The translations under genes and the position numbers were made by a program. The notes under the pieces are model-generated. The model searched no databases and was not told the origin of the DNA. It saw only the letters and a program-made list of their open reading frames with translations. From an uncultured Pelagibacteraceae bacterium (GTDB lineage Bacteria > Pseudomonadota > Alphaproteobacteria > Pelagibacterales > Pelagibacteraceae), in contig CACGBI010000007.1 of assembly GCA_902571235.1 (NCBI GenBank), positions 1 to 51,162 of the forward strand: a stretch of 51,162 nt of DNA, in the 5' to 3' direction. Below are positions 22,223 to 50,607 of the stretch, piece after piece. Numbering within the stretch: position 1 is the stretch's first letter; the number at the start of each line of letters is the position of its first letter.

Positions 22223-23842
22223 TTACATATTTCCATATTTAGGACCGCCACCACCTTCCGGAGTGATCCAGATAATATTTTGAGAGGGTTCTTTAATATC
22301 ACAAGTTTTGCAATGAATACAGTTTTGAGAATTTATTACAAATTTTTTTTTATCATTTTCAATTTGAACTTCATAAACTCCAGCTGGACAATATCTTTGA
22401 GCAGGTTCATCAAATTTTTCTAAAGTATAATTAATCGGAAGATTGGGATCTTTAAGTTTTAAATGAACCGGTTGGTTGTCTACATGATTAGTTCCTGTAA
22501 GATATACAGAACTCGTTTTATCAAAAGTTATTACATTATCATATTTTGGATAATCTATTCTAGGCATTTGATTTGCAGGCTTTAATGTTTCGTGATCAGC
22601 ATGTTTGTGTTTTAAAGTAAAAGGAATTTTGCCCCTAAACAAAATTTGATCAATACCTGTAAAAATTATTCCTAAAATTAACCCCCAACTAAAACTAGGC
22701 TTTACGTTTCGAGCTTCATAAAGCTCTTTATATAACCAGCTATTTTTAAATTTAACTTCATAAATAGATAAATCTTTATTTTCTTTTAAATGTTCATTAA
22801 TAGTTTCAGCCGCAATCATTCCACTTTTCATTGCGGTGTGAGAGCCTTTAATTTTTGGCATGTTTAAAGTTCCAGCATCACAGCCTATTAATAATGCTCC
22901 AGGCATAAACATTTTTGGTAAACTTTGAAATCCACCTTCAATTAAAGCTCTAGCTCCGTAAGATATTCTTTTTCCACCCTCTATAATTTTTTTAATTGCT
23001 GGATGTGTTTTGAATCTCTGAAATTCATCATAAGGTGATAAATGAGGGTTTTTGTAATCTAAACCAATTACATAGCCTAGAAAAACTTGTTTATTTTCTG
23101 CATGATACATAAAACTACCACCATAAGTACTGTTATCTAATGGCCATCCTGCTGTATGCATAACAAAACCTTCTTCATGATTTTTATCTTCTATTTCCCA
23201 TATTTCCTTAAATCCAATTCCATATTGTTGAGGATCTTTGTCTTTATTTAATTCAAATTTTTTAATTAATTGTTTTCCTAAATGACCCCTACACCCTTCT
23301 GCAAATACAGTTACTTTACCCAAAAGTTCAATGCCAGGTTCAAAACTGTCTTTTTTATTTCCATCTTTATCTATACCCATATCTTGAGTAGCTACGCCTC
23401 TAACAGATCCATTCTCATTATATAAAATTTCGCTAGCTGGAAATCCTGGAAATATTTCTACTCCTAAACTCTCAGCTTGTTCTGCTAGCCATCTACATAA
23501 ATTTGCAAGACTGATAATATAATTTTTATGATTTTGTTGTACTGCTGGTAGAAGCCATGTTGGCCAACTTAGCGATTTAGTTTTTCCCAAAAACAAAAAT
23601 TTTTCTTTAGTAACCTTTGTTTTAATGGGAGAATTTAATTCTCTCCAATTAGGTAATAACTCATCTAGTGCGCGAGTTTCAAAAACATTACCGCTTAAAA
23701 TATGAGCTCCAATTTCTGAAGCTTTTTCTAACAAGCAAACATTCAAATTTGGATCTAATTGTTTTAACTTTATTGCAGTAGATAAGCCAGATGGACCTCC
23801 ACCTATAATAACAACATCATATTCCATCGATTCTCTAGACAT
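22223..23842 (-). CDS. etfD: Electron transfer flavoprotein-ubiquinone oxidoreductase
   Basis: FAD motif VVIIGGGPSGLSTAI; C-terminal 4Fe-4S cluster CIHCKTCDIKEPSQNI; LIGCDAGTLNMPKIKGSHTAMKSG. Confidence 0.95.
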   Translation of the reverse strand: MSRESMEYDVVIIGGGPSGLSTAIKLKQLDPNLNVCLLEKASEIGAHILSGNVFETRALDELLPNWRELNSPIKTKVTKEKFLFLGKTKSLSWPTWLLPAVQQNHKNYIISLANLCRWLAEQAESLGVEIFPGFPASEILYNENGSVRGVATQDMGIDKDGNKKDSFEPGIELLGKVTVFAEGCRGHLGKQLIKKFELNKDKDPQQYGIGFKEIWEIEDKNHEEGFVMHTAGWPLDNSTYGGSFMYHAENKQVFLGYVIGLDYKNPHLSPYDEFQRFKTHPAIKKIIEGGKRISYGARALIEGGFQSLPKMFMPGALLIGCDAGTLNMPKIKGSHTAMKSGMIAAETINEHLKENKDLSIYEVKFKNSWLYKELYEARNVKPSFSWGLILGIIFTGIDQILFRGKIPFTLKHKHADHETLKPANQMPRIDYPKYDNVITFDKTSSVYLTGTNHVDNQPVHLKLKDPNLPINYTLEKFDEPAQRYCPAGVYEVQIENDKKKFVINSQNCIHCKTCDIKEPSQNIIWITPEGGGGPKYGNM

Positions 23843-23865
23843 ACTCTAGTTTTTAACTGTAAGGA

Positions 23866-24819
23866 TTATTTTTGTATAGTGTTTAATTTGTTCAGTTCTT
23901 CCATGAATTGAGGTAAAGCTTCAAATAAATCAGCCTCAAGACCATAGTCTGCAACGCTAAAAATTGGCGCTTCTCCATCTTTATTAATTGCAACTATGAT
24001 TTTACTTTCTTTCATTCCAGCCAAATGCTGAATTGCACCCGAAATTCCTATTGCAATATATAAATCTGGTACTACCACTTTTCCTGTTTGACCAACTTGA
24101 TGATCATTACTTATATATCCAGCGTCTACTGCTGCTCTTGATGCTCCAATCGCTGCACCGAGCTTGTCAGCAATTTCAGTAATCAATTTAAAATTGTCTC
24201 CACTTTGCATTCCTCTTCCACCTGATACAACAATTCTCGCTGTGCCTAGCTCAGGTCGGTCAGATTTTATTTCTTCCCTTTTGATAAATTTTGTATTTGA
24301 AAATTCTTCACTAGCTTCTACTTTTTCAATTGGAGCTGATCCTCCAGTGCTTTCGCATGGATCAAAAGAAGTAGGTCTTATTGTTACACATTTTTTTACA
24401 TCATTACTTTTAATTGTCGCAAAAGCATTGCCAGCATAGATTGGTCTTAAAAATGTATCTGGTGATATTACTTTAATGATGTCACTTACCTGAGAAGTAT
24501 CAAGGTGCGCAGCAATTCTTGGCATTAAATTTTTTCCAAATGTATTTGCTGAACAAACAATATGAGAGTAATTCTCTGCAAGTTTAACAATTACTGGAGA
24601 ATAATTTTCTGCAGTGAAGTTTTCATAATGGGTTGCTTCTACACTTAATACTTTTTTAACTACTGGAAGTTCAGATAATTGTTTTACTGCGGTTGAACTA
24701 TTTTGACCAATAATCACAGCATGAACGTCTGAGTCTATTTGAGATGCTGCAGTAGCTGCATTTAAAGTGAATGGTCTTAACTCTTTATTATTATGTTCAG
24801 CTATAAGTAAAACTGCCAT
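23866..24819 (-). CDS. etfA: Electron transfer flavoprotein subunit alpha
   Basis: [53 protein letters not shown]. Confidence 0.95.
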
Positions 24820-25568
24820 TATATTACCTTTGCCTCATTTTTTAATTTCTGAACCAATTCAGCAACATTAGCTACCTTTATGCCTGCTTTTCTTTTAGGA
24901 GGTTCCTCTACTTTTAATTGTTCTAACCTAGGTGATGCATCTACACCTAATTCAGATGCAGCAATTTCTTCAATAGGTTTTTTCTTTGCCTTCATGATAT
25001 TTGGTAATGATGCATATCTTGGTTCATTCAACCTAAGATCACAAGTTACAATAGCTGGAGTATTTATTTCGATTGTCTCAAGTCCCTCATCTATTTCTCT
25101 AGTAACTTCTAATTTATTGTCTTTAACATCAATTTTTGAAGCAAATGTTGCTTGAGGCCAATTTAATAAAGCGCTCAACATTTGACCTGTCTGATTACAA
25201 TCGTCATCTATTGCTTGTTTGCCCATGAATACTAAATCTGGTTTTTCTTTATCTACTATTTTTTGTAAAATTTTTGAAACAGCTAGTGGCTCTAGAATTC
25301 CGTCAACTTTTACATGAATACCTCTGTCTGCGCCAACAGCTAATGCTTTTCTAACTGTCTCTTGAGCTTTTTCTTCTCCAACAGTTATTGCAACTACTTC
25401 TGTTGCTTTACCTGTCTCTTTAATTTTTACAGCCTCTTCAATTGCATTATCATCAGGAGGGTTAGTAGACATTTTAACGTTATCTGTAACTATACCAGTG
25501 CCATCTTCTTTCACTCTAATTTGAACGTTATAATCAATAACTCTTTTTACAGCTACTAAAATTTTCAT
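24819..25568 (-). CDS. etfB: Electron transfer flavoprotein subunit beta
   Basis: [51 protein letters not shown]. Confidence 0.95.
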
Positions 25569-28006
25569 TAAGCTCTCAATAAATTATTTTCTGAATCATA
25601 TGGACTCTCATCTAGAACAGTAGCGTCGTACATTTCACCTAATATATCAACTTGTAATTTGTCGCCCACATTTGAACAATCTGGTTTAACCATTGCAAGA
25701 GCTATTGATTTATCTAATCTAAACCCAAATTCACCGCCTGTAGCTCTCCCAACAACTTTTCCATCTTTGAAAATTGGGTTATTACCCAATACGTCAGCAT
25801 TTTTTGTATTATGAACTTCTAGAGTAACTAATTTATTATCAAAGCCTTTTTCTCTCCATTTGTTAAGTGCTTCCAAACCAATAAAATTTCCTTTATTTGG
25901 GTGAATAAACCTATCTAGACCAGACTCATATGGTGAGTACTCGATTGATAATTCTGTACCTACTAATTTATAAGATTTTTCAACTCTTAGACTGTTCATA
26001 GCTCTAATTCCAAAAGGCTTTATACCTAAATCTTTTCCCGCTTCCATTAACTTATCAAATATGTGATTTTGATATTCGATTGGGTGATGCAATTCCCATC
26101 CTAACTCACCTACGAAGTTTACTCTCATTGCATTTACTGGAGCATATCCAACATTCACATTTTTAGCAGTAAGCCATTTAAAATTCTCATTAGAAAAATC
26201 ATCTGTTGAAACTTTTTGCATTAATTGTCTAGCTTTAGGACCTGCTACAACCAAAACCCCAGTGCTGTTTGTTAAATCTTCAAAAATTACTGAACCATCA
26301 TCTGGCATCCATTTTTGTATCCAATCATGATCTAATCTTAGATTTGCTCCAGCAGAAACTAAGTAATAACTATTCTCAGCCTCTTTCATTATTGTAAACT
26401 CAGAATGAACCCCACCTTTAGTATTTAATGCATGACATAAATTTATTCTTCCAATTTTTTTCGGAAGTTTATTAGCAACCAAATAATCAAGAAATTCCTC
26501 TGCTTTTGGTCCTCTAATTCTACATTTTGCAAACGCTGTCATATCTAAGAGACCTACGTTTTCTTTTACATTTTGACATTCTTTTTTAATTGCATCGAAC
26601 CATTTTGATCTTCTAAATGACCAATCATCTTTTTGTTCCATTCCATCTGTTGCGAAAAAATTTGGTCTCTCCCAACCAAATTTTTGACCAAACACAGCAC
26701 CTAAATTTTTCATTCTCTCATAACAAGGAGCAGTTCTTAAAGGTCTAGCTGCAGGTCTTTCTTCATCAGGATAGTGTGTGATAAAAACATGACTGTAGGC
26801 TTCTTCATTTTTAGCTTTTAAATAAGATTTAGTTGCATAATTTCCGTAACGTCTTGGTTCAACACCAAGCATATCTATAGTTGGTTCGCCATCAACTATC
26901 CACTCAGCCAATTGCCAACCAGCACCGCCTGCTGCAGTAATTCCAAAACTGTGTCCTTCATTAATCCAAAAATTCTTTAGTCCCCAAGCAGGTCCAACAA
27001 TTGGATTCCCGTCTGGTGTATAACAAATAGCTCCATTATAAACTTTTTTAACCCCAACTTCTCCAAAAGCAGGAACTCGATGAATTGCTCCTTCAATATG
27101 TGGTGCTAATCTATCTAAATCCTCTTGAAATAATTCATACTCAGAATTTTTTGAAGGTCCTTCAACATAGCAAGCTGGAGCCCCATCTTCGTATGGACCT
27201 AGAATTAATCCACCTGCTTCTTCCCTCATATACCATCTACTATCACTATCTCTTAAAACCCCCATCTCAGGAAGACCATCTTTTTTTCTTTTTTGAATTT
27301 CAGGGTGTGGTTCTGTTACAATGTATTGATGCTCAACTGGTATAACGGGAATATCTAATCCAACCATTTCTCCAGTTTGTCTTGCAAAATTACCAGAACA
27401 TGAAATTATATGTTCACATTCAATTGACCCTTTATCCGTTTCAACAACCCAGCCGTCTTTAGTTTGCTTCATAGCAATAACAGCTGTATTTCTGTAAATT
27501 TCTGCACCCATATTTCTTGCACCGGTGGCAAGTGCTTGAGTTAAGTCTGCTGGCTGAATGTATCCATCTTCTGGATGTTGTATTGCTCCTACTAAATCAT
27601 CTGTATGACATAAGGGCCAAATTTCTTTTACCTGTTGAGGAGTTAAAAATTTTACATCAACTCCTATAGTTCGAGCAACACCTGCATATTGATGATACTC
27701 ATCCATTCTATCTTTAGTACTGGCTAAACGAATATTTGATACAACACTAAAACCAACATTTTTTCCTGTTTCTTCTTCTAATTTTTTATAAAGATCAACA
27801 GCATATTTATGAAGCTGTCCTACTGAATAGCTCATGTTAAACAAAGGTAATAGTCCAGCAGCATGCCACGTTGAACCTGAAGTTAATTCTTTACGTTCTA
27901 CAAGAACAACATCTGACCAACCTTTTTTAGCTAAGTGATAAAGAGCACTTACACCAACTACTCCTCCACCAACTACTACAACTTTCGTTTTTGTTTTCAT
28001 GAGCAA
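25568..28006 (-). CDS. Dimethylglycine/sarcosine dehydrogenase family protein (FAD oxidase + GcvT-like fusion)
   Basis: N-terminal [33 protein letters not shown]-terminal folate-binding GcvT domain; followed by etfB. Confidence 0.88.
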
Positions 28007-30473: not shown

Positions 30474-30848
30474 TTATTTGAGTTTACCTTCTTCTCTCAT
30501 TTTCGCTCTTATTTTAGTGGCTGAAATTTCCTGTATTTCCTTCGAAAGTTCAATTTCCTCAATTTTATACCCTACACCTCTACCATAACAAATATTTGTA
30601 ATGTTTGGCACCATCATAATCTTAAAACGTCCCTTAAACTCAGGATTCAATCTATCTTCGATATTTTTTTTAACTGTTTCAAAATCAAATGGATTGTCAT
30701 CAACTCCTTGAACATCTCTTATTTGAATACAAACTTGACCAGTCTTCTTTATGATTTCTTTAAATAAAGTATAATGACCATCATGAAATGGTTGCCATCT
30801 TCCTAGCATTTGTGCTGTTGGTTTTTTATTATCCCATTCATAAGTCAT
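30474..30848 (-). CDS. Nucleotidyltransferase (HxGH cytidylyl/adenylyltransferase, NadM-like); start MTYEW
   Basis: MLGRWQPFHDGHYTLF and EISATKIRAKM; ATGA overlap with upstream kinase gene. Confidence 0.75.
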   Translation of the reverse strand: MTYEWDNKKPTAQMLGRWQPFHDGHYTLFKEIIKKTGQVCIQIRDVQGVDDNPFDFETVKKNIEDRLNPEFKGRFKIMMVPNITNICYGRGVGYKIEEIELSKEIQEISATKIRAKMREEGKLK

Positions 30849-31255
30849 TGTTTGATCTCCTTTAATATTTTTGGTGCCCAATTTTTAGCATCTTGAGTTG
30901 TAACATGAAAGTCATACTTATCAGGTTTTACAAACATTTTGTTTGTATCATCAAATCTACCCTCTTTTATTGTATCAACCCAAATAATAAAATCCGCAGG
31001 AAATAAACTTCTTGCTTCAGGTGTAGGACAAATAAAATCAGCAACAACATAATCACCTTTTTCTTTTAATTTAATTGCAAAGTCTGCCATTCTTTTAGCC
31101 TGTCTTTTTCTTCCTTCTTCAGAAAAATCCCAATCATTAGCTTCTTTTCTTACTTCATCTGCATTCAATCTTTTTGCATTAAGCATTGGACCTAACTCAT
31201 TTGCTAAAGTGGTTTTTCCTGAACCAGGTAATCCCATTATCAAAATTATTTTCAT
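30845..31255 (-). CDS. P-loop kinase, adenylylsulfate-kinase-like
   Basis: IMGLPGSGKTTLANELGPMLNAKRLNADEVRKEANDWDFSEEGR. Confidence 0.75.
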   Translation of the reverse strand: MKIILIMGLPGSGKTTLANELGPMLNAKRLNADEVRKEANDWDFSEEGRKRQAKRMADFAIKLKEKGDYVVADFICPTPEARSLFPADFIIWVDTIKEGRFDDTNKMFVKPDKYDFHVTTQDAKNWAPKILKEIKQ

Positions 31256-31256
31256 A

Positions 31257-32450
31257 TTATACTAAATTACTAGCAACCCATTTATGAAATTGGTGAGTTG
31301 GTTGATCCATAATAGGTGAAAAGTTTCCTCCATTATATACTGGTGAATTTCTTCCATCTTGCATGCCTTCGACCGCACTTATATCTTCTAACATCACGTC
31401 TTTCCAAAACCTTGAGTTTTCTTTTCTCAATTCTTTCAAATATTCACCATTTGCACTTTCATTTCCAACATAATAAATCTGCATATGTTCTTTAGTCTTA
31501 TTCATTGCTAAAGGTTCTAGCCAAAAAACATATAAATGATCAATATGTAATCCAATCATTACATTTGGAAATAAAGCAATATATTCTGAATTTTTTAATT
31601 TATCCTTTTCCCAATTTGGAAAAGATTTAAACTTTTTATTTCCCTTGATAAGTTGTTCATATTTTTTACTTCCCTGACCGGCAAATCTATTTGGCAATCC
31701 TTGGATATGATAATGATCATTAATACTAGAAACTTTATTTAACTCTGGGTGAATTGTGGGTAAATGATAACTTTCACAATAATTTTCAATTGCAAACTTC
31801 CAATTACATTTTACATCTAAACTAAAGTAACCATAATCATTTGAGTGTACTATTAATTTCTGATCTTCTTTATTAATAAAGCTAGACCATCTTCTTTCAA
31901 GAGGTTTAATGTATTCTTCAAAATCAACTTCATTGGAATTTATATTAACAAAGATAATATCCATCCAAATTTTAGTTCGAACTTCTTTTAAATGGCTTTT
32001 AGTTTTATCAAATTTTTTATGTTGATGATTATTTAAACCACCAATATGAGGAGTTGCTACTAGATTTCCTTTAAAGTCATAAGACCAAGAGTGATAAGGA
32101 CATCTAATAACATTTTTAAGGTTACATGCTTTGTCTAAAAGCTTAAATCCTCTGTGGCTACATACATTATGGAATACTCGAATCTTCATTTCTTTATCTC
32201 TAATCAAAATTAAAGGAATCCCGAGTAGATTGTATGGTTTAGCATCTCCAGCTTTTGGAATTGAACTCCCAACACCAACCACTGTCCATTTATTGAAAAA
32301 AATCTTCTCTTTTTCATAGGCTAAATAATTGGCATTTGTGTAGCAGTCATTTGGTAAGCCTTTTGCGGATTCTATTGGCTTATCTACATTATTTAATTTT
32401 TCAATATCAAGTATTTCTGAAAGAGGTAATTTTTTAAGATTCTGATCCAC
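31257..32450 (-). CDS. Rieske non-heme iron oxygenase alpha subunit (choline/betaine/aromatic-type); listed ORF extends to 32531, probable GTG start at 32450
   Basis: Rieske CSHRGFKLLDKACNLKNVIRCPYHSW; mononuclear Fe site ENYCESYHLPTIHPE. Confidence 0.85.
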   Translation of the reverse strand: MDQNLKKLPLSEILDIEKLNNVDKPIESAKGLPNDCYTNANYLAYEKEKIFFNKWTVVGVGSSIPKAGDAKPYNLLGIPLILIRDKEMKIRVFHNVCSHRGFKLLDKACNLKNVIRCPYHSWSYDFKGNLVATPHIGGLNNHQHKKFDKTKSHLKEVRTKIWMDIIFVNINSNEVDFEEYIKPLERRWSSFINKEDQKLIVHSNDYGYFSLDVKCNWKFAIENYCESYHLPTIHPELNKVSSINDHYHIQGLPNRFAGQGSKKYEQLIKGNKKFKSFPNWEKDKLKNSEYIALFPNVMIGLHIDHLYVFWLEPLAMNKTKEHMQIYYVGNESANGEYLKELRKENSRFWKDVMLEDISAVEGMQDGRNSPVYNGGNFSPIMDQPTHQFHKWVASNLV

Positions 32451-32552
32451 AAAAAAAATTATCACGAGGTTATTTTTAAGCAACAAATTTCGTTTTAGAT
32501 TATTGCTGAATTTCTTTGACAGCTTTTTCAAATAAGATAATGATCTGAAAAA

Positions 32553-33281
32553 ATGAACTTTTCTCTAGAAATTAGTCCAAAAACAGACCTTGATACAGTC
32601 CCAAAGGTAAGTGATGTTTATATTACAATGTTACCAGGTGGAGATTATAAAGAGACTGCCCAAAAAGCTGTTGAGTTAGTTAAAAAAGGATTTAACCCAG
32701 TGCCACATTTTCCAGCAAGATCTATGCACAACGAAAAAGAGCTTAAAGATTATGTTGATATGTGTAAAGACGGAGGAGTTAAACAAGCTTTAATTATAGG
32801 TGGTGGTAGAGAACCATTGGGAAAGTTTGATAGCTCATTTCAACTTTTAGAGACTGGTTATTTTGAGAAGATGACTATAGGAATTGCTGGACACCCAGAG
32901 GGGAGTCCTGATATATCCGATTCAGATTTAGAAAAAGCTATGATAGATAAGAAGCCTTATGCTGATTATATTGTAACCCAATGGATGTTAGATCCTCAGC
33001 CTATCATAGATTTTATATCTAAACAAAGCGTACCAGTGCATGTAGGAATTACTGGACCTCTAAAAATATCTAGCTTAATTAAATTTGCTAATATTGTAGG
33101 AGCAAAAAATTCCCTTAACTTTCTTAAGTCTAATTTTAGTAAGGCGTTAGATTTATTGAAACCTAAAGACCCTAATGATTTAATTGGGAAAGTTAAATCG
33201 CATACTGATTTCTTCCACATTTATACATTCGGCGGCTTGAAGGAAACTAACAAGTGGTTGAAGGAGAATGGTTATGTCTAA
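32553..33281 (+). CDS. Methylenetetrahydrofolate reductase family protein (short, MetF-like)
   Basis: FSLEISPKTD, VPHFPARSMHNEKEL, GIAGHPEGSPD. Confidence 0.85.
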   Translation: MNFSLEISPKTDLDTVPKVSDVYITMLPGGDYKETAQKAVELVKKGFNPVPHFPARSMHNEKELKDYVDMCKDGGVKQALIIGGGREPLGKFDSSFQLLETGYFEKMTIGIAGHPEGSPDISDSDLEKAMIDKKPYADYIVTQWMLDPQPIIDFISKQSVPVHVGITGPLKISSLIKFANIVGAKNSLNFLKSNFSKALDLLKPKDPNDLIGKVKSHTDFFHIYTFGGLKETNKWLKENGYV

Positions 33282-34632
33282 AGAATTTGACTATACTAAA
33301 CTAAAACATGTTACCTCAGTTGATCAATCAGATCGGGAAGTACCATATAATTTAAGACAAAGCGGGCCAACAAAAGTTGAGATGTTAATTTCAACAAGAG
33401 TTAGAAAATCACCTTATTGGCATTTATCAATGCAAGCAGGCTGCTGGAGAGCAACTGTATATAATCGTATTTATCATCCAAGGGGATATGTAAAACCAGA
33501 AGATGGTGGAGCGATGGTAGAATATGATGCAATTGTAAATCACGTTACAATGTGGAACGTGGCAGTAGAAAGACAAATTAGAGTTAAAGGTCCCGATGCT
33601 GAAAAATTTACAGATTATGTAATTACTAGAGATGCAACAAAAATTTCACCAATGAGAGCAAGATATGTAATTTTGTGTAATGCTTATGGTGGAGTTTTAA
33701 ATGATCCAATTCTTCTTAGAATTTCAAAAGATGAATTTTGGTTTTCTTTATCAGACTCTGATATAGGTATGTATCTTCAAGGTGTTAATGCTGACGGAAG
33801 ATTTAATTGCACAATTGAAGAAATTGATGCTTGTCCAGTTCAAATTCAAGGCCCTAAGTCAAAAGCTTTAATGAAAGATCTTTGTGGAGATCAAGTTGAT
33901 TTTGATAATATGCCTTTTTATGGTTTGGCTGAGGTAAAAGTTGGTGGAAGAAGTTGTGTAATTTCTCAATCAGGTTTTTCTGGTGAAGCTGGATATGAAA
34001 TATATTTAAGAAATGCAACTTTGTATGCTGAAGATATGTGGAATGCTGTCCTTGCTGCTGGAAAAAAACATAACTTGATGGTAATTGCTCCTGCTCATCA
34101 TAGAAGAATTCAAGCTGGTATTCTTTCTTGGGGGCAAGATATGGATATGCAGCATAATCCTTTCCAGTGTAATTTGGGTTACCAAGTTTCTCTATCTGGA
34201 AAAGGGGAATGGAATAAGACAGCGGATTATGTAGGAAAAGCTGCATTAGAAAAAATGGGTAAAGAACTTAGAGATGGTAAAAAACCATATAAACTTCAGT
34301 TAGTTGGACTTGAATTAGGAGGAAAACCAATTGAGGAGTATGCACCTGATTTTTGGCTAATATCTGCTGAAGGTGGTGGAGATCCGATTGGATTTATTAC
34401 ATCTCCTTGGTACCACCCAGAAAAAAAACAAAATATCGCAATGGGATATGTACCATTTGATGGGACACTAAATGCAAATGGTTTTCCAAAAGGTAAGGTT
34501 GGAACTAAATACAAAGTTCATTTGCCTGATATTTACTCTGAAAAATCGGGTGAACCTGTTGATGCAGTTGTAGTGGATATTCCATTCAAAGAATCTTTTA
34601 ACGCAAATACTAGAGAAGTTGTAAAAGGTTAA
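33268..34632 (+). CDS. GcvT/DmdA/LigM-like aminomethyltransferase family protein (start possibly 33274)
   Basis: VAVERQIRVKGPDAEKFTDYVITRD, NDPILLRI, SGFSGEAGYEIYL; paralogous to the 1442..2596 ORF. Confidence 0.85.
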   Translation: MVMSKEFDYTKLKHVTSVDQSDREVPYNLRQSGPTKVEMLISTRVRKSPYWHLSMQAGCWRATVYNRIYHPRGYVKPEDGGAMVEYDAIVNHVTMWNVAVERQIRVKGPDAEKFTDYVITRDATKISPMRARYVILCNAYGGVLNDPILLRISKDEFWFSLSDSDIGMYLQGVNADGRFNCTIEEIDACPVQIQGPKSKALMKDLCGDQVDFDNMPFYGLAEVKVGGRSCVISQSGFSGEAGYEIYLRNATLYAEDMWNAVLAAGKKHNLMVIAPAHHRRIQAGILSWGQDMDMQHNPFQCNLGYQVSLSGKGEWNKTADYVGKAALEKMGKELRDGKKPYKLQLVGLELGGKPIEEYAPDFWLISAEGGGDPIGFITSPWYHPEKKQNIAMGYVPFDGTLNANGFPKGKVGTKYKVHLPDIYSEKSGEPVDAVVVDIPFKESFNANTREVVKG

Positions 34633-43692: not shown

Positions 43693-44280
43693 TTATAATG
43701 ATTTAAAACCAAATTCTAAAGATGCGTCTGTAATAGAGTGATACAAAGATTCTCCAAAACTTCTTAAAGCGAACAATCTTACTTTATTAGGATTGTCATT
43801 CAACATGTCAACAGTAAAAGCTATTCCATTGTAAATAGAATTTATTGAATTATTTTTTGCCAATGTATTAAAATTAAAAGGACACCCTTTCTTTAAAATT
43901 TCTTTTACTTCATGTCCTTCTATTTGAATTATAGCTCTTGAATGAGATAGGTCTGTTACAGCAAAATCTGTTTCTTGAAAATTTTGTAAAATAATTTTTA
44001 ACAAATCTTTTTTTGTTGAAACTAAAAGCCAATTTTTTGGTCCATTCCACAATATTCTTGTATCATTATTATTTACCACTAATAATGGCTCATCTTTTAA
44101 TCTTAAACCATCAATGTCAACAGTTTCAAAAGAAACTGTAGAATTTTTATACTGAACTATTTGAACAATTAATAAATTATTTATTTCAGAAATTTTTAAA
44201 AGATCATTTTCATTTTTGCCTTCATGATCACCAAATTTACCTGTTGAATGAACATTTGCTAAAGCTGACATTGAACTCAT
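43693..44280 (-). CDS. soxG: Sarcosine oxidase subunit gamma
   Basis: position after sox[25 protein letters not shown]. Confidence 0.85.
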
Positions 44281-47273
44281 GATCTAACTCTTTCACCTTT
44301 TGGATCAACATAATGTGAAGAAACTATTTCAACTGGTATTACTTTATTTTTGAGTGGTGACATTACAAATAATTTTTCTCCAATCATGTTTTTTCCATCT
44401 TTCAATATTGCTAATGAAAATGGATTATCATGCTCAACACTCCAGCAAGACGCTGAGATATAACCTAATTTTGGATTTGGTAATGGTGCATTTGAATCTT
44501 TGACTAAATGTGATCCCTCTGGAATACTTGTTTTTTTGTCTAAAGGAACAACACCTACAACTTTTTGCCTATCATCAGCTGTAAATGCCTTTCTAGTTAA
44601 AGATCTTTTTCCAATAAAATCTTTCTTTTTACTTAGTAGACCCTCTAGAGAATTGTCATAAGGAATTGTTCTTCCATCAAGCTCTGATCCTGCTACGTGT
44701 CCCATCTCAATTCTTAAAGTTGATAATGCCTCTGTGCCGTATGGTTGAATTTTGAATTCTTGACCAACTTCCATAATTTTTTCCCACATAAAGTTTCCAT
44801 TATCTGACTCAACATTAACTTCATATGCTAGCTCGCCAGAAAATGAGATTCTAAAAATTCTAGCCTTTACCCCAAACAAATCTCCCTCCATATAACCCAT
44901 AAAAGGTAAACCCTCATTTGATACATCGGAGTTTGGAAATAGTTTTTGCAATAAATCCCTTGATTTCGGTCCGGCTATTGCTGCCCCTGCCCATTGTTCT
45001 GTACTTGAAACTACATTCACGTTTAATTCTGGCCAGACTAGTTGTAAATAATATTCTAAATGCGAAAGAACATTTGCAGCTTGTGCAGTGGTGGTAGTCA
45101 TATGATAATGATTTTCAGAAATTCTTGTAGTTGTTCCATCATCCATAACAATTCCATCTTCTCTCAACATTACACCGTACCTTGCTTTACCCACTGGCAA
45201 CTTTAACCATGCATTGGTATAAACTCTATTAAGCAGTTCTGCGGCATCTGGACCTTTGATATCTATTTTTCCTAATGTAGTCACATCACAAACACCTACA
45301 TTTGTTCTTACATTTTTTGCTTCTCTTTTTGATCCTTCAAATAAATTTTCCTGATCTTGTTTGTAGTATCTAGGTCTTAACCACACACCTGCATCAACAA
45401 AAACTGCATTATTTTTTTCATGCCAAGAATGCATAGGTGATTTTCTTGTTGGCTTTGAATGCTTTCCAACTTCTCTTCCTACAATTGCTCCAATAGAAAC
45501 TGGTGTGTACGGTGGTCTAAATGTTGTATGACCAACTGCAGGCACAACTTTATTTTCAATTTTTGACACTAGTTGTAAACCATTAAGATTACTTGTTTTG
45601 CCTTGATCAGTAGCCATTCCAAGAGTTGTATATCTCTTGACATGTTCGATTGATCGATATCCTTCTTTTAAAGCAATTTCTATATCTGATACCGCAACAT
45701 CATTTTGAAAATCTAAAAATCGTTTATAATTTTTACCTTTGGGAAGTGGTACACACCAAAACTTATCATGAACAGTTGATTTTTTTTCAACCACGTTTGG
45801 AAAAGAAATTTTATTATCTTTATTAGTAATTTCTTTTGATAATTTATGACCAGTTTCAAATGAACTTTTTAAAGTTTCATCTAAAGTATAAGTTCCATTT
45901 GCAGCACCTAAAGTAGTTTCATTTTGTTTTGATATTCCCGGAACAAATGCATCTATATCATCTTTAAATTTTGTTTTATTTCCTGATTGTGAAGCTAAAT
46001 GTATTGTTGGAGTCCAGAAACCAGAAACACAAATACAATCACAATTAATATTTTCTATTACACCTAGTTGTTCTTTATCATCAGAAATTTTTGCTATATC
46101 TGCTGATTTTACTTTCTTGTAACCTTGAGCAGCTACCACTACATAAGAAAATTTTATATTTATTCCTAAATCAATTGCCTCATCAACTATTTCAGATTTT
46201 GGATTTTTTCTTGTATCTAAAATAACAGGGTCAACTCCATTTTTTTTAAATTCGATTGCTGTTTCATATCCGCTATCATTATTTGTAAATATTAATGGAT
46301 TTTTTCCAACTAATACTCCATAAACTTTAAGATATTCTTTCGCAGCTGATGAAAGCATCACTCCTGGTGTATCATTGTTACCAAATACAATTGGTCTTTC
46401 AATAGATCCAGAGGAAATTAAAACCTCTTTTGCTCTTATATACCAAAGTCTTTGTTTTGGATGAAATTTCTTGGTTTTTGGTAAGTGATCACTTATTCTT
46501 TCAGACATCACTAACATATTATGATCATAGTAACCAAAGACTTGAGATCTATTTTTTACTGTCACGTTAGGCATTTCTTTAAGCTCAGAAATAATTCCAT
46601 CAGCCCATTCTTTGCCTGATTGATTGCCTATATTTACCTCACTGGTTAATAGTGTTCCACCAAACCTAGATTTATCTTCTGCTAAGATTACTCTAGCACC
46701 ATTCTTAGCTGCAGCATAAGCGCTTGCTAATCCAGACGGTCCAGATCCAGTAATCAATAAATCACAATATTCATATTTATGTTCATACCTTTCTTTGTCA
46801 TGTTTTATAGACGCAACCCCAAGACCAGCTGCTTTTCTTATAAATGGCTCGTAAATTTTAAACCAAAAGCTTTTTGGCCACATAAAAGTTTTGTAATAAA
46901 ATCCTGCAGGAAGAAATATCTTTAAAAAATTATTTATAGCTCCAATATCAAAATTAACACTGGGCCAACAGTTTACACTTGTTGCCTCTAAGCCATCAAA
47001 AAGTTCTTGTTCAGTAGCTTTTATGTTTGGTTCAGTTTCACCATTTCTATATAATTGTACAATTGCATACGGTTCATCAACTCCAGCACCAAAAAAACCT
47101 CTGGGCCTATGATACTTGAAGCTTCTACCCACCAAATGAACTCCATTTGCAATTAACGCTGATGCTAAGGTGTCTCCCTCATAACCATAATAATTTTTTC
47201 CATTGAACTTAAATGAAATTTTTTTATCTCTATTAATTAATCCTACATTTTCTAATCTAAACGGCTGTGTCAT
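44277..47273 (-). CDS. soxA: Sarcosine oxidase subunit alpha
   Basis: 998 aa; [43 protein letters not shown] motif [23 protein letters not shown]-terminal GcvT domain. Confidence 0.95.
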
Positions 47274-47542
47274 TATGAAATTTCCTGATTAGCTTTTAAA
47301 GTTTTAAAAATTTCATGAGTTGCTGTGTCTCTCTCTACTTTTATCCATTGGCGACAACCCGATAAATGTTGCCATAACTCCCAATGTTTTCCTCTTAAGC
47401 TTTTTCTATTATAAACAAAATCATCCCACTCTTGATCAGATACTTCTTTACCTAATTCAGGTCTTTTTATTGTGGCATCTCCTCCATAAGAAAATTCATT
47501 TTGTGATCTCATTCCACAATGAGGACATTTAATATGAAGCAT
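47273..47542 (-). CDS. soxD: Sarcosine oxidase subunit delta
   Basis: IKCPHCGMRSQNEFSYGGDA; GKHWELWQHLSGCRQW. Confidence 0.95.
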   Translation of the reverse strand: MLHIKCPHCGMRSQNEFSYGGDATIKRPELGKEVSDQEWDDFVYNRKSLRGKHWELWQHLSGCRQWIKVERDTATHEIFKTLKANQEIS

Positions 47543-48799
47543 TTATGAAATCCAAGTTTTTGTTCCAAGTCCTTTTTCATCTAATAAGTGACCTGTATTA
47601 AATCTATTTAAATTATACCCAGCATTTAGTTCATGTACTCTGTCTTGTGCAATTGTATGAGCAAATGTCCAACCAGATGCTGGTGTTGCTTTGAATCCAC
47701 CATAACACCAACCACAATTTAAATATAAACCTTCAATGTGGGTTTTATCAATTATTGGAGAACCATCCATAGACATATCCATTATACCGCCCCAAGTTCT
47801 AAGCATTTTTAATTTGCTGAGGAATGGCATCATTGCAATACCTTCGGTTAAAACATGTTGTAAAGTAGGCAAGTTTCCTCTTTGAGCATAACTGTTATAT
47901 CCATCTAAATCACCACCCATTACCATTTCACCTTTGTCTGATTGACTAATATAAAAATGTCCAGCACCAAAAGTAACTACTCTATCTAAAACTGGTTTTA
48001 CTGGTTCAGATACACATGCCTGTAAAAGATGTGTTTCAATTGGTAGTCTCATATTTAATTTTTCAGCTAATATATTTGTGCTGCCCGCAACACATAAACC
48101 AATTTTTTTTACTTTAATATCTCCACGTGATGTTCTAACGCCTTTTATTTTTCCACCAGTGACTTCAAATCCAGTAACTTCACAATTTTGAATTATATCA
48201 ACTCCCATTGAGTCTGCTTGGCGTGCATAACCCCAAGCTACCGCATCATGTCTAGCTGTACCTGCGCTAGGCTGCATTAATCCACCAAATATTGGAAATC
48301 TAACATTTTCAGAAAAGTCTGCCATTGGGATGATTTCTTTAACTTGTTCTCTGTTTAAAAGAACAGCATCAATTCCATTTAATCGCATTGAATTTCCTCT
48401 TCTTGCGTAAACATTCATTTGCGCATCAGAGTGAGCAAGGTTTATAATTCCCCTTGGAGAGAACATTACATTATAATTTAAATCTTGGCTCATCCTTCTC
48501 CAAAGATCCATTCCAAATTCACTAAACAATGCATTATCATCATGCATATAGTTTGATCGAATTATTGTAGTATTACGACCTACATTGCCTCCACCAATCC
48601 ATCCTTTTTCAATGATGGCAACATTAGTAATATTATGCTCTTTTGCGAGGTAATATGCTGTTGCTAAACCATGGCCTCCACCTCCGATAATGACTACATC
48701 ATACTCTTTTTTAGGAGTTGGGTCTTTCCAAGCAAGGTCCCAATTCTCATGGTTAGAGAAAGCATTTTTGATTAAATTAAATACTGAATATTTTTGCAT
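47543..48799 (-). CDS. soxB: Sarcosine oxidase subunit beta
   Basis: VVIIGGGGHGLATAYYLAKEHNITNVAIIEKGWIGGGNVGRNTTIIRSNY. Confidence 0.95.
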   Translation of the reverse strand: MQKYSVFNLIKNAFSNHENWDLAWKDPTPKKEYDVVIIGGGGHGLATAYYLAKEHNITNVAIIEKGWIGGGNVGRNTTIIRSNYMHDDNALFSEFGMDLWRRMSQDLNYNVMFSPRGIINLAHSDAQMNVYARRGNSMRLNGIDAVLLNREQVKEIIPMADFSENVRFPIFGGLMQPSAGTARHDAVAWGYARQADSMGVDIIQNCEVTGFEVTGGKIKGVRTSRGDIKVKKIGLCVAGSTNILAEKLNMRLPIETHLLQACVSEPVKPVLDRVVTFGAGHFYISQSDKGEMVMGGDLDGYNSYAQRGNLPTLQHVLTEGIAMMPFLSKLKMLRTWGGIMDMSMDGSPIIDKTHIEGLYLNCGWCYGGFKATPASGWTFAHTIAQDRVHELNAGYNLNRFNTGHLLDEKGLGTKTWIS

Positions 48800-48924: not shown

Positions 48925-50607
48925 ATGAGTGAAGTAAAATCAGATATCCAAATAGCAAGAGAAGCAAAAATGCAACCAATAAAAGACATATTGGCTAAAA
49001 TTAATGTTCCAGATGAAAGTACAGCTTTTAGTCCAATGGGGAGACATATAGCAAAAATAAACTTGGAATATCTAAATTCAATTAAAAAAAAGGATGGTAA
49101 TTTAATTTTGGTAACTGCAATTACACCAACACCAGCTGGCGAAGGTAAAACCACAACTTCAGTTGGGCTAAATGACGGTTTAAATAAAATTGGAAAGAAA
49201 TCTATTGTTTGTCTTAGAGAGCCAAGTCTTGGTCCCTCTTTTGGAATGAAAGGTGGTGCTGCTGGGGGAGGATATGCTCAAGTTGTACCCATGGAACAAA
49301 TTAATTTACACTTTACTGGTGACTTCCATGCGATCACCTCAGCACACAATTTATTGTCAGCCTTAATTGATAATCATATTTACTGGGGGAACAAACTTAA
49401 TATTGATGTTAGAAGAGTAGTTTGGAAAAGAGTAATGGATATGAACGACAGATCTTTAAGATCAATTGTTGTTGATCTTGGTGGTGTGGCCAATGGTTAT
49501 CCTAGACAAGATGGTTTTGATATTACTGTAGCATCTGAAATTATGGCAATCTTTTGCTTAGCCACTGATTTAAAGGATTTAGAAAATAGAATTGGAAATA
49601 TTACAATTGGTTATACCAGAGATAAAAAAGCAATTTGTGCAAAAGACCTAAACGCTCAAGGTCCAATGACTGTATTATTAAAAGAAGCAATTAGACCTAA
49701 TGTGACACAAACTTTAGAAAATAATCCTGCAATTATTCATGGTGGACCATTTGCAAATATTGCTCATGGATGTAATTCAGTTATTGCTACTAAAGCTGGT
49801 TTAAAACTTGCAGATTATGTTGTAACAGAAGCTGGTTTTGGTGCTGATCTTGGAGCTGAAAAATTTTTAGATATAAAATGTAGAAAATCAGGAATTAAAC
49901 CTGACTGTGTAGTAATAGTGGCAACTATAAGAGCTTTGAAAATGCATGGTGGTGTGCCAAAAGATGAATTAAAAAATGAAAATGTCGATGCTCTAAAAAA
50001 AGGTCTAGTAAATTTAGAAAGACACATCAATAATACAAGAAAATTTGGTCTTCCAGTAACAATTGCTGTAAATCACTTTATAACAGATACTGATAAAGAG
50101 ATGAATACACTTCTTGATTTTTGTAAAACTCAAGGAGTTAAAGCTTCAAAATGTACTCATTGGTCTAATGGTGGAGAAGGAACTAAAGAGTTAGCAAAAA
50201 ACGTTGCTGAAATATGTGAGGATAAAAAAAACACATTCAAATATTTATATGAAGACAACCTACCTTTATTTAAAAAAATAGAAAAGATTGCACAAGAAAT
50301 TTATCATGCAAGTGAAGTTGTTGCAGATACTAAAATTAGACAACAATTAAAAGACTTTGAGGAAAAAGGTTATGGAAAACTTCCTGTTTGTATTGCTAAA
50401 ACTCAATATAGTTTTTCTACTGACCCTAATCTTAAAGGAGCACCTACTGGACATGTATTGCCAGTTAGAGAAGTGAGGCTATCTTCAGGAGCAGAGTTTA
50501 TAGTTGTTGTTTGTGGAGAAATAATGACCATGCCTGGTTTACCTCGTGTTCCAGCTGCCGACTCGATTAAGTTAAATGATAAAGGCGATATAGAAGGTTT
50601 GTTTTAA
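48925..50607 (+). CDS. fhs: Formate-tetrahydrofolate ligase
   Basis: [42 protein letters not shown]. Confidence 0.97.

Follow-up and report, generated by a model that had tools for sequence, protein, structure and literature searches.

Which methylated compound is processed by an overlapping gene pair of the SAR11 bacteria? We examined this pair in a 51,162-nucleotide stretch of DNA (the window; contig CACGBI010000007.1 of assembly GCA_902571235.1) from a genome that is 72.6% complete and whose nearest genomes are Pelagibacteraceae, SAR11. The first gene encodes a short methylenetetrahydrofolate reductase (MTHFR) homolog of 242 aa (32553-33281, plus strand), and its frame overlaps by 14 nt that of the second, which encodes a 454-aa methyltransferase of the GcvT fold (33268-34632, plus strand; Pfam GCV_T 7e-39). 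A Rieske non-heme iron oxygenase alpha subunit of 424 aa (31257-32531, minus strand; Pfam Ring_hydroxyl_A 1.6e-47, Rieske 5.2e-17) is transcribed away from them, the called starts lying some 20 nt apart and the TTG start of the Rieske gene being uncertain. An earlier note on this DNA had described three genes in this arrangement, which prove real and intact, and had proposed an undescribed demethylation module. The pair had in fact already been described as SAR11_1264 (metF) and SAR11_1265, an aminomethyltransferase with no known substrate for which demethylation of 3-methylmercaptopropionate (MMPA) was the guess (Sun et al., 2011; PMC3160333); we matched the window pair to SAR11_1264-1265 by the same gene pair and annotation, not by alignment to the HTCC1062 sequence. 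The earlier note had also left the substrate unknown, whereas genome context and mutual exclusion with the enzyme MtgB indicate glycine betaine (GBT). We consider it probable that the 454-aa protein is a tetrahydrofolate (THF)-dependent GBT demethylase that requires neither cobalamin nor oxygen nor homocysteine, and that the overlapping MTHFR oxidises the resulting 5-methyl-THF.

If the family of the 454-aa protein carries out the first step of GBT degradation, it should replace the B12-dependent GBT demethylase MtgB beside dimethylglycine dehydrogenase (DMGDH). DMGDH orthologs, MTTB proteins (PF06253, MtgB) and the 454-aa family were all scored on the same 385 alphaproteobacterial genomes. 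The family occurs in 18 of these, with at least 61% identity to the query, and in four genomes of another class of the phylum, none of which has MTTB. A strict DMGDH ortholog is present in 65 genomes, of which 13 carry the family without MTTB, one carries both, 49 carry MTTB only and two carry neither (Fisher p 8.6e-11 in a test that is not tree-aware). Counting each taxonomic family-state combination once gives 9, 1, 28 and 2 (p 1.9e-6, likewise not tree-aware), and the exchange is visible even inside one taxonomic family (f29), where G028 has the 454-aa gene without MTTB and G159 has MTTB without the 454-aa gene. MTTB is a broad family, and the MTTB genes counted are not all proven GBT enzymes. 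The two genes also occupy similar positions: the distance to DMGDH is 64-429 bp for MtgB (11 genomes) and 128-720 bp for the 454-aa gene (five genomes), and a DMGDH-family match at E<=1e-100 accompanies 18 of 18 clade members of the class sample, against 136 of 385 genomes overall. As a negative control, DmdA/aminomethyltransferase paralogs, in a list limited to E<=1e-60, showed no exclusion with MtgB (9/5 against 41/10, p=0.28). The oxygenase GbcA, as an alternative first step, has a strong relative in 6 of 372 genomes, none over its cut-off. On adjacency, MtgB exclusion and this control, the 454-aa family fills the slot between GBT and dimethylglycine (DMG) beside DMGDH, in place of the known enzymes.

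The neighbourhoods of the family gene outside SAR11 point the same way. DMGDH lies no more than 1 kb from it in G161, G258, G364, G075 and G286; one locus (L131) brings together SoxBDA, the family gene, MTHFR, formate-THF ligase (FHS) and DMGDH; in L127, L129 and L130 DMGDH and SoxBDA stand beside the family gene, and in L119-L121 SoxBDA, a DMGDH-like gene and MTHFR do so. L147-L148 contain the family gene, MTHFR, FHS and a DMGDH-like gene, and their sister locus L146 a serine dehydratase and a DMGDH-like gene. In L146 (8271-8718; G442) the match of the MTHFR gene next to the family gene is split between two frames, as a frameshift would leave it; in the relatives L147 and L148 the gene is open. 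Neighbour annotation of L122-L128, L132 and L133 is mostly uninformative, partly because simple open reading frame (ORF) prediction produces false frames where DNA is rich in G+C. Locus L133 (G016) was set aside as outside the clade, and L134-L135 are SAR11. The 48-52% identical relative in L133 (9448-10668) was dropped from the counts as a family member; its genome has DMGDH and SoxBDA and lacks MtgB, and it may represent an intermediate lineage. Since the presence of DMGDH and sarcosine oxidase genes nearby says more about the pathway than about the exact substrate, and MTTB homologs as a class accept several betaines (PMC12478193), the substrate might instead be another N-methyl compound feeding the DMG/sarcosine route, such as choline, carnitine, a proline-betaine-like compound or DMG itself. 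We regard this as unlikely: DMG is already handled by DMGDH, GBT is its immediate precursor, and the exclusion partner is the MTTB gene directly beside DMGDH, the position expected of a GBT enzyme.

What kind of protein is it? The earlier note had asked for its placement against DmdA, LigM and GcvT. The family forms its own clade with 100/100 support in the tree, with DmdA outside; the deep branches of this GcvT-fold tree are long and their order unsure, and DmdA is itself a long branch whose exact place is unsure. The 454-aa protein scores below the cut-offs of the curated models for DmdA (PRK12486; 226.2 bits, equivalog cut-off 410), GcvT (TIGR00528; 121.9 bits, cut-off 235.85), LigM and DesA (NCBIfam; 33.3 and 40.2 bits, cut-offs 580 and 800) and the two-domain trimethylamine N-oxide (TMAO) demethylase Tdm (141.6 bits over its C-terminal part only, cut-off 1100). 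By cut-offs and tree it thus classifies as DmdA-like, yet not as DmdA, LigM or GcvT. Its AlphaFold model (pLDDT 83, pTM 0.85) has as nearest known structure DmdA 3tfh (TMt 0.92), with LigM at a TM of about 0.58, and the ND, S and YE residues are conserved between it and DmdA by alignment. The proteins differ in that they are 29-31% identical, that the 454-aa clade has a conserved N-terminal extension (VDQSDRxVPxNLRQSGP), and that Trp197 of this genome's DmdA aligns with Phe237 of the 454-aa protein, a Phe in every clade member. We infer that W197 is the Trp reported for DMSP (dimethylsulfoniopropionate) specificity; W or F has been described at a key DMSP residue (PMC7487153).

These comparisons bear on the idea of Sun et al. 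that the protein demethylates MMPA and so removes the second methyl group of DMSP. The nearest fold is indeed that of DmdA, and SAR11_1265 was seen close to dmdA, with similar metagenome abundance (PMC3160333). The supported separation of the clade from DmdA and the invariant Phe at the DmdA-type Trp argue in the other direction, as does the observation that the neighbours outside SAR11 are GBT genes, with no dmdB- or dmdC-like gene among the part of the neighbours that was annotated. The SAR11 route, moreover, takes MMPA via DmdB/C to methanethiol (PMC5069961), and we judge an MMPA demethylase to be improbable.

Eight GcvT-domain proteins of this genome match the 454-aa query. A separate GcvT-like protein is present, and the true DmdA is a 31%-identical paralog on contig 5 (573.8 bits, cut-off 410). 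A third DmdA-like aminomethyltransferase is encoded at 1442-2596 of the window, beside isocitrate lyase, and at 382.6 bits falls under the 410-bit DmdA cut-off; we take it to be of the SAR11_1303 type. Sun et al. placed SAR11_1303 near the opuABC genes for GBT transport and postulated a role in GBT metabolism (PMC3160333), so that GBT could be the substrate of this paralog, with a different role for the 454-aa protein. It is, however, mostly paralogs of this type that make up the control list showing no MtgB exclusion, and they are common also in MtgB-carrying genomes; such an exchange of roles seems to us very improbable.

Within SAR11 the pair is strongly conserved. The 454-aa gene was found in 36 of 41 genomes of the genus (15 of 16 of the high-quality ones), with 92-96% protein identity across 80 SAR11 loci and down to 83% in a wider sample of the genus, and the MTHFR-like gene directly overlaps it in all 80 loci. 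Neither the 454-aa family nor DMGDH is present in two near-complete genomes of the sister genus. Transcripts of SAR11_1264 and SAR11_1265 drop together 5-10 fold in stationary phase (PMC5069961), consistent with one unit. The MTHFR homolog falls below the canonical MetF thresholds (Pfam, 22.2 bits, cut-off 24; NCBIfam, 27.7 bits, cut-off 310) and matches the solved MTHFR 7xg9 over residues 3-236 (phmmer 3.2e-34), a homology of the S6MTHFR type. A search of two near-complete SAR11 genomes gave no other MTHFR match, while many larger genomes add a canonical MetF and some carriers (f76, f120 and G312) have canonical MetF only, so the short partner is not universal. SAR11 have been reported to lack both MetH and MetE (PMC12478193). 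As 5-methyl-THF would then have no known methionine-synthase use in SAR11, the best explanation is that the MTHFR runs oxidatively, a direction for which S6MTHFR of Sphingobium provides a biochemical precedent (PMC12585457). Fold, genome context and this precedent support what the earlier note had suggested of the chemistry, namely methyl transfer to THF by a GcvT-fold protein followed by a reversed MTHFR step to methylene-THF.

The Rieske gene was the other element of the earlier proposal, as a preceding or parallel step. The sequence of its product shows the Rieske motifs CSH and CPYH together with the iron-ligand motif NYCESYHLPTIH; among solved structures the protein is closest to carnitine monooxygenase (6y9c, 9e-32), and it matches the GbcA model NF058607 over residues 56-266 only, at 122.6 bits against a cut-off of 670. 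It diverges immediately from the pair in 46 of the 72 SAR11 loci with enough flank, which together with the carnitine-active relative would fit a single demethylation system. In the remaining 26, however, it is displaced (19) or absent from the locus (7), its identity across SAR11 loci is 60-91%, and no Rieske homolog was seen at any of 19 loci from beyond the genus (L118-L132 and L145-L148, of which some have short flanks). An FNR-type reductase (PF00175) was found neither in this genome nor in four single-contig SAR11 genomes of 99-100% completeness, which bears out the earlier remark that no partner reductase is visible nearby. We rejected the combined system on linkage and the missing reductase and give it very little probability: because the Rieske gene is missing from all 19 outside loci and non-adjacent in 26 of 72 SAR11 loci, a Rieske step before or beside the pair is unsupported, a lack of linkage that the earlier note had itself named as counting against its proposal, and the gene is probably a separate SAR11 neighbour outside the module. 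A relative of carnitine monooxygenase thus sits in SAR11 genomes in which no FNR-type reductase is detectable; for a homarine-linked lead, a literature search returned no description of such a Rieske gene. In many SAR11 loci, as in the window (30474-31255), the Rieske gene is adjoined by two overlapping small genes, which encode a cytidylyltransferase-like protein and a P-loop protein resembling adenylylsulfate (APS) kinase.

From gene anatomy, predicted fold, clade, conservation, context and MtgB exclusion we predict the substrate, the product and the direction of the MTHFR step as follows. The 454-aa protein would bind GBT and THF in a DmdA/GcvT fold and pass one N-methyl group directly to THF (GBT + THF -> DMG + 5-methyl-THF), and the overlapping MTHFR homolog would convert 5-methyl-THF to 5,10-methylene-THF, which would enter the THF-linked one-carbon oxidation route that ends with FHS (48925-50607, plus strand; PRK13505, over its cut-off). 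DMG would be converted to sarcosine by the nearby DMGDH (25568-28006, minus strand; DAO and GCV_T domains by Pfam), with electrons passing to EtfBA and on to electron transfer flavoprotein (ETF):quinone oxidoreductase (ETF-QO). The genes for ETF beta (24819-25568) and alpha (23866-24819; both NCBIfam) and a probable ETF-QO (22223-23842; FixC-like FAD domain, C-terminal Cys-rich CIHCKTCDI read from the sequence) are in line with DMGDH on the minus strand at 22223-28006, a ready electron route for DMG oxidation. Sarcosine would become glycine through SoxBDAG or another dehydrogenase. On the minus strand, in the order SoxB-D-A-G, are SoxB (sarcosine oxidase beta, 47543-48799; TIGR01373, over its cut-off), SoxD (delta, an 89-aa ORF assigned by position, 47273-47542), SoxA (alpha, 44277-47273; TIGR01372, over its cut-off) and SoxG (gamma, 43693-44280; TIGR01375, below its cut-off). 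A search of the window against Rfam gave no riboswitch match at gathering thresholds.

The predicted enzyme has counterparts with which it shares different features. DMSP, the DmdA substrate, is an onium osmolyte like GBT, and DmdA moves a methyl group of such an osmolyte to THF, as predicted here. The LigM-S6MTHFR pair of Sphingobium SYK-6 likewise couples a THF demethylase to an MTHFR homolog running oxidatively, although LigM is only distantly similar to the 454-aa protein and acts on aryl methoxy groups. MtgBCD with MetF2 of Ruegeria pomeroyi shares the DMGDH-adjacent slot and the net reaction predicted here, including the subsequent MTHFR oxidation, but has an unrelated fold and needs cobalamin and three proteins. 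GbcAB also converts GBT to DMG and has a distant GbcA homolog in the window Rieske protein; it differs in being oxygen-dependent, and no reductase was found for the latter. The betaine-homocysteine methyltransferase (BHMT) of SAR11 would share the conversion of GBT to DMG and is otherwise unrelated, as it uses homocysteine as acceptor, makes methionine, and is patchy and controlled by an S-adenosylmethionine (SAM) riboswitch. Only SAR11, according to a 2025 PNAS proposal, depend on a single BHMT for the first step of GBT degradation (PMC12478193). In HTCC1062, bhmT is under SAM-riboswitch control in a hypervariable region, and the incomplete genomes of HTCC9565 and HIMB114 yielded no such gene (PMC5069961). 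HTCC1062 from cultures whose medium contained 50 uM methionine oxidised 14C-methyl-GBT to CO2 with negligible incorporation (PMC3160333). The present genome encodes one S-methyl_trans protein, of 320 aa, without an NCBIfam name at E<=1e-25, which could be BHMT or MmuM.

Several points weigh against the GBT assignment. HTCC1062 also has bhmT, so its GBT oxidation does not need the 454-aa enzyme. Two genomes, G301 and G247, carry both the family and MTTB (the MTTB of G247 being weak), 4 of the 18 carriers are without a strict DMGDH ortholog, and the immediate neighbours in L122, L123, L124, L126, L128 and L132 are uninformative. Pocket residues were compared by alignment alone. The exclusion, finally, marks a pathway slot and not a substrate, and is fitted equally by another betaine feeding DMG or by a partner function for DMGDH. 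With these points weighed, we still lean towards a B12- and oxygen-independent GBT:THF methyltransferase, near-universal in SAR11 and present in at least 10 other proteobacterial families, as the main catabolic GBT demethylase there, with BHMT serving methionine supply.

In the open-access literature searched, we found no earlier report of the GBT assignment, of the MtgB exclusion or of the wider 454-aa family, which suggests that these are what is new here about a known pair. We class the protein as a DmdA-like demethylase that would act through THF, its predicted substrate being a quaternary-ammonium compound. GBT ranks among the major osmolytes of the sea, and SAR11 are the most abundant heterotrophs of the ocean. 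The prevailing BHMT-only proposal for SAR11 sits against a BHMT that is patchy and requires homocysteine; if our assignment is correct, a core THF-dependent enzyme would explain the full oxidation of the GBT methyl groups and free the first step of GBT degradation from vitamin B12. It would also give GBT turnover in the ocean a marker gene, and a protein left open since 2011 a substrate.

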